A stretch of 37,969 bases of DNA, taken from the NCBI RefSeq assembly GCF_006861775.1, contig NZ_VDGG01000016.1, positions 96,302 to 134,270 on the forward strand. The letters run 5' to 3'. The number at the start of each line of letters is the position of its first letter. Within the stretch, counting starts at the first letter, position 1. Below the pieces are notes generated by a model. That model saw only the letters and a list, made by a program, of their open reading frames with translations, searched no databases and was not told the origin of the DNA. Source of the stretch: Psychrobacillus soli (GTDB lineage Bacteria; Bacillota; Bacilli; Bacillales_A; Planococcaceae). This document shows, piece by piece, positions 1,103 to 37,884 of the stretch. The translations under genes and the position numbers were made by a program.

Positions 1103-1139
1103 AAAAAAAGAACAATCCTACATGGATTGTTCTTTTTTT
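1103..1139. terminator. Bidirectional intrinsic terminator after ponA
   Basis: A perfect 16-bp stem (1103-1118 with 1124-1139) closes a 5-base loop. The arms begin with A7 and end with T7, so it can end transcription from either side. It starts 5 bases after the ponA stop. Confidence 0.9.
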
Positions 1140-1185: not shown

Positions 1186-1311
1186 TTGGTTGCTCTCGCA
1201 TGGAGGTTGGTTGCTTTCATAGGTAAGTTAGTTGCTCTCGCTAGTGGACTGGTTGCTCTCTAGCTATATTTGGTTGCTTTCACTTCGTAATTGATTGTTA
1301 TTTGCCATATA
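1186..1311 (+). repeat. 21-bp tandem array, unit type I, first block
   Basis: Six units start at 1186, 1207, 1228, 1249, 1270 and 1291, exactly 21 bases apart. Each begins with a form of TTGGTTGCTYTC and continues with about 9 variable bases; the last unit is degenerate. All three plus-strand frames hit a stop within four units, so it is not coding. It lies between the convergent ponA and ypoC genes. Confidence 0.85.
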
Positions 1312-1370
1312 TTTACTATTCAACTCGCTATTCTGACTTAGTTTCATTCAGTTAAGTCTCCATTTGAGAA

Positions 1371-1475
1371 ATGGTTGCTTACGCATGGGGATTGGTTGCT
1401 TTCCCTAAAGGACTGGTTGCTCTCTAGCCAAATTTGGTTGCTTTCCCCGCGACACTGGTTGCCCTTAGCCATTTT
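1371..1475 (+). repeat. 21-bp tandem array, unit type I, second block
   Basis: Five more units of the same type start at 1371, 1392, 1413, 1434 and 1455, again exactly 21 bases apart. They are separated from the first block by about 60 bases without a clear unit, and the phase shifts by 4 bases across that gap. Confidence 0.85.
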
Positions 1476-1491
1476 ATTACAAAACAAAAAA

Positions 1492-1516
1492 GAGAATGAG
1501 CGCATCGCTCATTCTC
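1492..1516 (-). terminator. Intrinsic terminator of the nth-ypoC end of the operon
   Basis: An 11-bp stem (1492-1502 with 1506-1516) with a 3-base loop is followed on the minus strand by a T6 run. It lies just past the ypoC stop. Confidence 0.85.
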
Positions 1517-1520
1517 CTTC

Positions 1521-1814
1521 CTATGATTTATAATTCTGTGCTCGTAGTCGAGCAAGTTTCTTTTTCGTTTCTTTGAAAAGCTCGTCCAATTGCTTGAAGG
1601 CGGTATAATTATGTTTATTGTTTCTAATAAATGCAAATCGTTCTGAAAAATTAATAGGAGCTGCCTCCCCCACTTTACCTACAATCACTTCTAACAGCTG
1701 AATTCCTTGCTCCATTAGCTCCACTCTAGTAGTATCTTTTTCTTTAAAAAGTATAGCTAACTGGCCCCTTAAATTATCCCACTTTTCGAATTCGATTAAA
1801 TTACGCTCCGGCAA
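1521..1814 (-). CDS. ypoC: YpoC-family protein of unknown function
   Basis: A 97-residue soluble protein with no signal peptide or membrane segment. It is rich in Glu, Lys and Arg, with a predicted helical middle and a basic C-terminal end (KKKLARLR). The assignment rests mainly on position: B. subtilis has ypoC directly after nth and next to ponA, and the same order is seen here. It is shorter than the roughly 125 residues I remember for B. subtilis YpoC. The start is TTG, overlapping the end of nth by 14 bases, which suggests translational coupling; an AAGGA lies about 11 bases upstream. The function is not known to me. Confidence 0.7.
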   Translation of the reverse strand: MPERNLIEFEKWDNLRGQLAILFKEKDTTRVELMEQGIQLLEVIVGKVGEAAPINFSERFAFIRNNKHNYTAFKQLDELFKETKKKLARLRAQNYKS

Positions 1815-8041: not shown

Positions 8042-8123
8042 CATTCGGGAATTAGAAACGAAAAATATGCTAAAAAGAAAAGTTGGATTTTTGGGGGTAT
8101 TTCTTACAGGGATGCCTTCAACA

Positions 8124-8224
8124 GAGGAACAAACGCTAAGAGCGCCACATCCTGTGGCAACGCCTTCGTGACCAACATCCTGTTGGCCTCGGTCGGAGTC
8201 ACCGCCTGCAGCGAAAATCAATGG
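8124..8224. repeat. Dispersed twin-hairpin repeat, copy A
   Basis: A 101-base element with two short hairpins, GCCACATCCTGTGGC and CCAACATCCTGTTGG, which share the core ACATCCTGT. It ends with CGAAAATCAATGG. It aligns over its whole length with 37784-37884 and in its first ~65 bases with 35448-35512. No gene is in it. Confidence 0.85.
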
Positions 8225-8259: not shown

Positions 8260-8388
8260 AATCCATAAAATGGCTTAGGGCAACAAACTGGTCATTGAAA
8301 GCAATCAATTCTACTTCGAGAGCAACCAACTCTTAAAATAACAAGTTTACTTGGATTGAGACGATGATGATTACGACGCATTATCCCT
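8260..8388. repeat. Mosaic repeat block containing a type I array and the CAAGTTTACTTG motif
   Basis: The block runs AATCCATAAAATGGCTTAG, then three 21-bp units, then AACAAGTTTACTTGG and a GACGCATTATCCCT tail. Shorter versions with the same order recur at 10898-10958 and 24150-24218. With copy A it fills most of the dinG-panD gap. Confidence 0.8.
8267..8329 (-). repeat. 21-bp tandem array, unit type I (three units, minus orientation)
   Basis: Read on the minus strand, units begin at 8329 (TTGGTTGCTCTC), 8308 (TTGATTGCTTTC) and 8287 (TTTGTTGCCCTA), exactly 21 bases apart. It is the same unit type as near ponA, but reversed. Confidence 0.8.
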
Positions 8389-10897: not shown

Positions 10898-10958
10898 AAT
10901 CCAATAAATGGCTTAGAGCAACCAATTCTAAAATAACAAGTTAACTTGGATTGAGACG
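10898..10958. repeat. Mosaic repeat block, short copy
   Basis: AATCCAATAAATGGCTTAG, one type I unit in minus orientation (GAGCAACCAA on plus), then AACAAGTTAACTTGG and ATTGAGACG. The 12-mer CAAGTTAACTTG is a perfect palindrome here. It matches 8260-8363 with two of the three units missing. Confidence 0.8.
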
Positions 10959-11104
10959 GCGGCGACTGTACTCATAAAAGGTTATGTGGTAGTCACGAAA
11001 GGTTATGTGGCGGTCACAAATGGTTATGTGGTACTCACGAAAGTTATGTGGCGGTCACAATTGGATATGTGGTACTCATAAAAGGTTATGTTGCACTCGT
11101 TATT
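10959..11104 (+). repeat. 21-bp tandem array, unit type II
   Basis: Six clear units (GGTTATGTGGYRSTCAC plus 4 bases) start at 10980, 11001, 11022, 11042, 11063 and 11084. A half-degenerate one precedes them at 10959. All steps are 21 except one of 20. The unit sequence is unrelated to type I. It abuts the short mosaic block on one side and the birA terminator on the other. Confidence 0.85.
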
Positions 11105-24149: not shown

Positions 24150-24218
24150 AAATAGCCGAGAGCAACCAATCCTCATAGTAACAAGTTTACTTGGTGTGAC
24201 TTTTGCGCATTATCCCTC
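24150..24218. repeat. Mosaic repeat block, aroA-side copy
   Basis: AATAGCCGAGAGCAACCAAT, then AACAAGTTTACTTGG and GCGCATTATCCCT in the same order as at 8273-8388. It contains a single type I 21-bp unit in minus orientation. Confidence 0.75.
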
Positions 24219-35334: not shown

Positions 35335-35447
35335 CTGTTAACCCCCTAGACCAAAACTATACATACCATTAGCATCTTAGCATACGAATCGAATATAATA
35401 AATATTTTTCACTTGATTTAGCAGGAAGTTTAACTCCCCGCTGAATT

Positions 35448-35512
35448 GAGGAACTCTTGCTAAGATCGCCACGTCCTACAGCAACGCCTGAGTGACCAAC
35501 ATCCTGTATGCC
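35448..35512. repeat. Dispersed twin-hairpin repeat, partial copy B
   Basis: About 65 bases match the first two thirds of 8124-8224, including CCAACATCCTGT, but both hairpin stems are decayed. It lies in the 328-base folE-hup gap, which otherwise shows only AT-rich sequence, an imperfect CAATT-type repeat near 35517-35545 and the hup terminator. Confidence 0.7.
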
Positions 35513-37678: not shown

Positions 37679-37884
37679 TGCAGTCAAGACAGTGTAGGGG
37701 GCAGGGCGGACGCTTTCCGTGGGGTGAGTGATGAGCCTTCACCGCCGCTTACGCGTACGTTGGAATGGCTCATTAAGCTCAGAGTGGAACAAAGGCTAAG
37801 AGCACCACATCGTGTGGCAACTCCTTCGACGACAACATCCTGTTGGCCACGGCAAGAGTCGCCACCTGCATCGAAAATCTATGG
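37679..37884. repeat. Long dispersed repeat with twin-hairpin copy C
   Basis: The right part (37784-37884) aligns with 8124-8224 over 101 bases. The left part begins with GGGCGGACGCTTTCCG and holds GATGAGCC, inverted as GGCTCATT. From memory, GGCGGACGCTTTCCG openings are frequent in intergenic repeats of Bacillales. A short open frame crosses it, but nothing suggests that it is a gene. Confidence 0.75.

Follow-up and report, generated by a model that had tools for sequence, protein, structure and literature searches.

RAYT genes and their REP/REPIN sequences form a system in which a vertically kept chromosomal gene is flanked by, and matched to, dispersed intergenic repeats. At TnsB end sites of Tn7-type elements and in plasmid iterons, direct repeats about two helical turns apart lie beside the gene for a DNA-binding protein. 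A CRISPR array consists of near-identical repeats, at least about 23 bp long, separated by unique spacers of similar size. The array described here lies in a stretch of 37,969 nucleotides of Psychrobacillus soli DNA that was analyzed in full (hereafter, the window), and is likely to be a binding platform for a NERD-domain protein, many such target arrays being dispersed over the genome as parts of one chromosomal protein-and-repeat system.

By analogy, RAYT/REP is the described system that works most like the NERD arrays, all four full-length family members of our genome being flanked by their own dispersed box family; it fails as a model on protein family and repeat form, as the NERD protein has no Y1 transposase domain (Pfam, six proteins) and the NERD-side boxes are non-palindromic, not self-complementary, 21-bp phased, and present as several families per genome. 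Like TnsB sites and iterons, the boxes are direct repeats about two turns apart beside the gene for a candidate binder; however, no transposase or replication gene was seen in the NERD family profile, and the arrays are also dispersed in trans. The likeness to CRISPR-Cas is that of a nuclease-type gene beside an array of conserved units with variable spacers, but the boxes are about 12 bp and the spacers 8-9 bp long, spacers recur, the same box is found at many loci, and there is no RNA structure signal. BIME/REP clusters and the staphylococcal STAR elements resemble the arrays in lying between genes, at their ends, and in combining conserved cores with variable parts, whereas the NERD arrays keep a strict 21-bp period over unrelated families and have a gene partner where tested. 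The Bacillaceae-1 RNA (RF01690) shares a composite element with many of the arrays, yet the array lies outside the RNA match and also occurs without the RNA. Searches of the literature, most subscription papers being beyond reach, returned no description of these boxes or of NERD genes with arrays, and within that literature the system looks undescribed.

The features of the window that are used below are as follows (F1 and F2 are box families).

About 1108..1139, plus strand: terminator-like hairpin and T run of a ponA-like gene, on the opposite side of the array (read from the sequence; absent from the terminator scan list)
1186..1302, minus strand: F1 array block 1, six 21-bp units with the box GARAGCAACCAA on the minus strand, final unit decayed
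1371..1475, minus strand: F1 array block 2, five 21-bp units, final unit decayed, a partial copy of block 1
1484..1524, minus strand: intrinsic terminator-like site of a ypoC-like gene, adjoining the array (terminator scan)
8297..8329, plus strand: pair of F1 boxes, 21 bp apart, in a MITE-like composite (right terminal repeat near 8388)
10914..10925, plus strand: lone F1 box with one mismatch, beside the F2 array
10968..11098, minus strand: F2 array, CCACATAACC on the minus strand, period 21
24158..24169, plus strand: lone exact F1 box in a short stretch bounded by terminal repeats

For the DnaD protein of the window, the ten best relatives (80-93% identity) comprise nine Psychrobacillus records and one from Bacillus sp. 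FJAT-22090. The array sits between the convergent ponA-like and ypoC-like genes (names assigned by eye from their sequences), inside their two terminators. Its 12-bp boxes define the F1 family, TTGGTTGCTYTC, which reads GARAGCAACCAA on the minus strand. The original prediction placed units at 1186-1291 and 1371-1455 in exact 21-bp steps within each block, and the remapping confirmed this; the step between the blocks is 80 bp, which is no multiple of 21. Nine of the 11 units match TTGGTTGCTYTC with up to two mismatches, the decayed ones (at 1291 and 1455) being the last of each block. In the whole window, both strands included, there are 17 matches, whereas 100 shuffles gave 7.2 on average and never more than 13. 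The further claim that about 12 bases are conserved and the other nine vary freely stood in its first part, the boxes being constrained, and not wholly in its second: positions 1208-1323 and 1372-1487 are 72% alike, so one block is in part a copy of the other, and several spacers are seen again elsewhere in the genome. A scan against Rfam gave no match at the array. The F2 array at 10968-11098 lies directly behind the single F1 box and its tail.

In the complete genome we counted 594 near-matches to TTGGTTGCTYTC (up to one mismatch), against 52 for the reversed control. Among neighboring exact boxes, with distances of 10-40 bp allowed, 72 of 83 were spaced by 21 bp, nine by 20, one by 22, and one by 27 (control, none). 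A family-independent lag scan of 54,553 noncoding bases of this genome (sampled stretches and the window) gave 20 arrays at lag 21, 14 at lag 42, and none or one at each other lag between 10 and 60. The spacing scan that the original prediction called for has thus been run and peaks at 21 bp, and neither of the outcomes named there as counting against selection, a lack of such a peak or mostly identical units, was observed. Pairs of F1 boxes 21 bp apart occur in eight of 19 genomes of the genus, ours included, and in none of 132 other genomes. The first 60 bases of four contigs of our genome (C5, C19, C20, C24) start inside F1 boxes; since the repeats evidently break the assembly, the copy count may be too low.

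The same period is shared by boxes of unrelated sequence. Our genome has the families F2 (CCACATAACC), F3 (TTCCAACTAAA), F4 (AATCGCAAGAT), and F5 (CGCAACATT), and further 21-bp families were found in other species. A few lag-21 matches are AT-rich and probably false (L159:19286, L190). F4 boxes form 21-phased pairs in 16 of the 19 genomes of the genus, F2 boxes in five, and F6 boxes (TTGGACAATC) in four; the corresponding reversed controls matched 0, 3, and 2 times in total. Outside the genus, GAGCGGATA pairs were found four times in two of 220 genomes, all at 21 bp with 19-22 bp allowed. The value of 21 bp is not absolute, because two stretches from other genera have period 20 or mixed 20/21; these are phased arrays of other boxes behind ypoC, in Lysinibacillus (L111:5841-6006) and Sporosarcina (L096:5871-5987). 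No lag-21 array was detected in 18 random stretches from other families of the class. Several families also show higher-order repeats, with about 4-6 boxes and a linker recurring every 100-185 bp (L064, L156, L159, L288).

The first clue to a protein partner came from the few arrays in divergent regions, which pointed to a gene that encodes a NERD-domain protein and is bounded by F1 boxes on either side in two species. Among the fetched loci, arrays lay near 13 of 16 match rows for relatives of this protein, a biased sample as these loci had mostly been chosen for their arrays. We therefore drew NERD genes by Pfam score: PF08378 was present in all 19 genomes with 4-10 matches each, and 30 loci were cut out. 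Family membership was assigned by full-length similarity to the F1 protein, blind to arrays, with 17 genes in and 13 out. At a strict threshold, a lag-21 array was found beside 13 of the 17 family members and none of the 13 other NERD genes (p = 2e-5). Control genes of 280-360 aa had such an array nearby in 16 of 205 cases (12/59 in our genome and 4/146 elsewhere), a proportion well below that of the family (p = 3e-10). Of the four family members missed, three (L271, L273, L280) have sub-threshold 21-bp repeats visible by eye, and the fourth (L270), a short locus, has none.

The four full-length family members of our genome are paired with arrays as follows.

C36:75 kb (gene at C36:74975-75946): F1 boxes, the same family as the window array
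C36:108 kb: F2 boxes, the NERD gene of the F2 array in the window
C16:37 kb: F3 boxes
C69:105 kb: F4 boxes

A fifth NERD gene of another type (C29:31 kb) has no array. Wherever boxes were counted next to NERD genes (17/17 loci), all of them lay on the gene-sense strand; the reading of each family was set from one locus, and the real test is agreement within families. In other genera, the genome G020 has a single family member, beside GAGCGGATA-type arrays, and the same box recurs at two more of its loci. Downstream of four NERD genes from three other genera, picked without knowledge of their arrays, 21 was the top lag in every case, with scores of 50, 41, 47, and 40 of 63 against shuffle maxima of 36, 35, 35, and 37. 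Because random stretches of other genera held no NERD homologues, the evidence from outside the genus consists of G020 (locus L254) and these four downstream stretches. Of 141 genomes sampled from the bacterial family, 122 contain the NERD family by profile; they represent 16 of 19 genera and have up to 11 members each. The pairing is not obligatory, as in G006 71 F1 pairs persist although the F1 gene is present only in fragments, in G011 there are 20 F1 pairs and no close F1 gene was found, and for F5, with an array at L059:19759-19865, no NERD partner was found in our genome; arrays can therefore outlast the gene or exist without it. The original prediction of a bound protein is sharpened by this gene family, whose adjacency to the arrays strongly indicates a cognate protein for the boxes.

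The protein combines a NERD domain (PD-(D/E)XK-like nuclease) with a zinc ribbon and, at the C-terminus, one more small domain. In the F1 protein, Pfam places NERD at residues 51-161, and PF08378 scored above its curated cut-off in six of six proteins (57.6-64.4 bits vs 22.1). Invariant in all 27 rows of the alignment (25 distinct genes) are G51, G54, E55, D88, E101, K103, and the cysteines at 238, 241, 255, and 258; D88, E101, and K103 form the catalytic-type D and ExK. Five C-terminal pieces gave no significant match in Pfam, known HTH families included. The last 60 residues of the F1 protein presumably resemble a winged helix, and the C-terminal domain is probably DNA-binding. Among solved structures none covers the family, the best match (E 0.17) being to zinc-ribbon stretches only. 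In PADLOC and NCBIfam, four proteins lacked a full-length match and gave only weak ones, to the NERD portion of the defence proteins PglW or MADS6. A search for plasmid or viral carriage with one F4-type query gave one weak plasmid match and, in a viral scan able to detect close relatives only, no locus.

Protein and box distances are correlated (Mantel r = 0.71 for 25 gene-array pairs and 0.45 for 17 non-redundant ones, p = 2e-4 each; L280 left out). The box of the nearest protein ranked first of 24 in 12 of 25 cases. Ranking was poor for L285 (rank 19), L226 (rank 8), L273, L281, and L254. This correlation speaks for joint descent and not for recognition, and shared descent at one locus could suffice to produce it. 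Because box and protein diverge together, one genome can hold several independent pairs. In the loci inspected, murA-like or spoIID-like genes (names by eye) are the constant neighbors of the F1-type gene, and the box beside the gene at this locus is TTGGTCTCG in G017 (gene 64% identical) and G003 (55%). Phased TTGGTCTCG pairs number 27 in G003, 21 in G015, 10 in G010, and seven in G017, with none in the other 15 genomes, ours included; they were expected in G003 and G017, thought possible in G005, G008, and G014, where none was found, and unforeseen in G010 and G015. In G003 the pairs are mostly away from the gene, while six of the seven in G017 are beside it. G015 has TTGGTCTCG near a 54% relative with stop codons in the match.

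Orthologous arrays were compared for signs of constraint. At the ponA locus, F1 arrays are present in three of ten named relatives (L061, L062, L064). Between the window and L061, differences fall on 11 of 60 positions in boxes, 23 of 36 in spacers, and 36 of 108 in flanks; pooled over five comparisons, with L062 vs the window left out, the counts are 26/288, 41/169, and 205/1167. For the sister genomes G006 and G016 we used ten of 20 arrays (dropped were one without an anchor, one overlapping its neighbor, three with under three family boxes, and five, by hand, as not homologous, inverted, or not an array) and excluded columns in poorly alignable stretches. Here 73 of 716 box, 167 of 598 spacer, and 244 of 2650 flank positions differ (box vs spacer, p = 1e-16), so that boxes change at about a third of the rate of spacers, a ratio to be read with the excess of spacer over flank divergence, which implies that paralogous units were probably aligned in places and inflate the spacer figure. 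One array had the reverse trend (3/60 boxes vs 1/55 spacers). The boxes thus look constrained, and the original view that the pattern is selected held up, with the period found genome-wide and in the genus and boxes better conserved than spacers. Several changes in array length were of exactly 21 bp and others of about 20. An F4 array in G006 (C12, about 65144-65272) appears inverted in place relative to its G016 counterpart.

Arrays were found in 19 of 69 convergent, 26 of 264 tandem, and two of 108 divergent intergenic regions, arrays inside predicted ORFs (12, 19, and 7) being excluded; the convergent enrichment is absent in the third genome group taken alone (p = 0.54). Relative to tandem genes, the strand of the boxes was 10/10 one way for F2, 8 vs 19 for F1, 3 vs 4 for F4, and 6 vs 1 for F6, and a general rule of strand polarity was dropped as F1 and F4 are mixed. 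A replication-based orientation, suggested by the F2 positions in G004, was also dropped, since gene direction explains these positions equally well. Coding repeats were rejected by eye, as in-frame stops are visible (e.g. the TAG in CTCTCTAGC) and 20-bp steps break the frame. Structured RNA was rejected as well: the folding of 23 stretches did not surpass that of shuffled sequences (mean z -0.09 and -0.08 per strand, with one and two stretches, respectively, below z -2).

The reading we favor, in which the arrays are targets of a NERD protein, would account for these observations as follows. The NERD gene adjoins boxes of its own kind, and further copies of that family are spread over the genome, for the most part outside divergent promoters. 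With the boxes two helical turns apart, the protein would occupy them next to one another along a single face of the DNA, and it may have nuclease activity. With less confidence, we suggest that cutting and refilling over two turns could add 21-bp units; such staggered cutting would give one unit length whatever the box sequence. A bolder version, in which such systems form a widespread class and each NERD-zinc ribbon protein both reads and writes its own box, giving several orthogonal genome-marking, defence, or architecture systems per genome, is offered tentatively and falls short of even odds. If the target reading is true, a common and little-studied nuclease-like family would gain a candidate DNA target in its own 21-bp-phased boxes, the many natural co-diverged pairs of protein and site could allow a DNA recognition code to be derived, and a testable case of a repeat family and a protein being kept together would be at hand. 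Many intergenic repeats of these genomes would also be explained by the NERD system.

The boxes could instead be passenger repeats of a MITE-like element, spread by transposition and gene conversion, multiplied by local slippage, and tolerated where no promoter is near, with NERD adjacency due to chance or tolerance of insertions. In our genome many F1 copies do lie inside an approximately 470-bp composite that has terminal repeats and contains the Bacillaceae-1 RNA, arrays are rare in divergent regions, and units and whole blocks are gained and lost quickly. However, the window array has no terminal repeat or dyad near 1186-1475, and several others likewise have none of the composite ends; the composite is thus a carrier of arrays and not what defines them. 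Passenger repeats are also made unlikely by the conservation of boxes while spacers drift at the same locus and by the link to a single NERD family, which recurs in other genera and is not shared by the remaining NERD genes or the control genes.

It is rather improbable that the arrays serve the host at transcription ends or in chromosome folding, with some general protein bound to them and NERD genes as incidental carriers of large ones. Such a role would fit the convergent enrichment, and the two-turn spacing suits side-by-side binding, but one general protein explains neither why there are so many unrelated boxes nor why these match the local NERD lineage, and the third genome group lacks the enrichment. 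That the arrays act as transcribed RNA, with repeats that guide or occupy the NERD protein, is very improbable despite the uniform gene-sense boxes beside NERD genes, given the fold results on both strands, a spacing that stays at two DNA turns as spacers drift, the lack of a fixed strand relative to tandem genes in dispersed F1 and F4 arrays, and the position of at least the window array and the F3 array behind terminators.

The composite also bears on the annotation of the RNA that it contains. Since the RNA motif sits inside a dispersed composite with terminal repeats, the Bacillaceae-1 RNA family may be partly a mobile repeat and not a lone RNA gene. The window itself has three matches to RF01690, at 8120-8186, 35444-35510, and 37780-37846.
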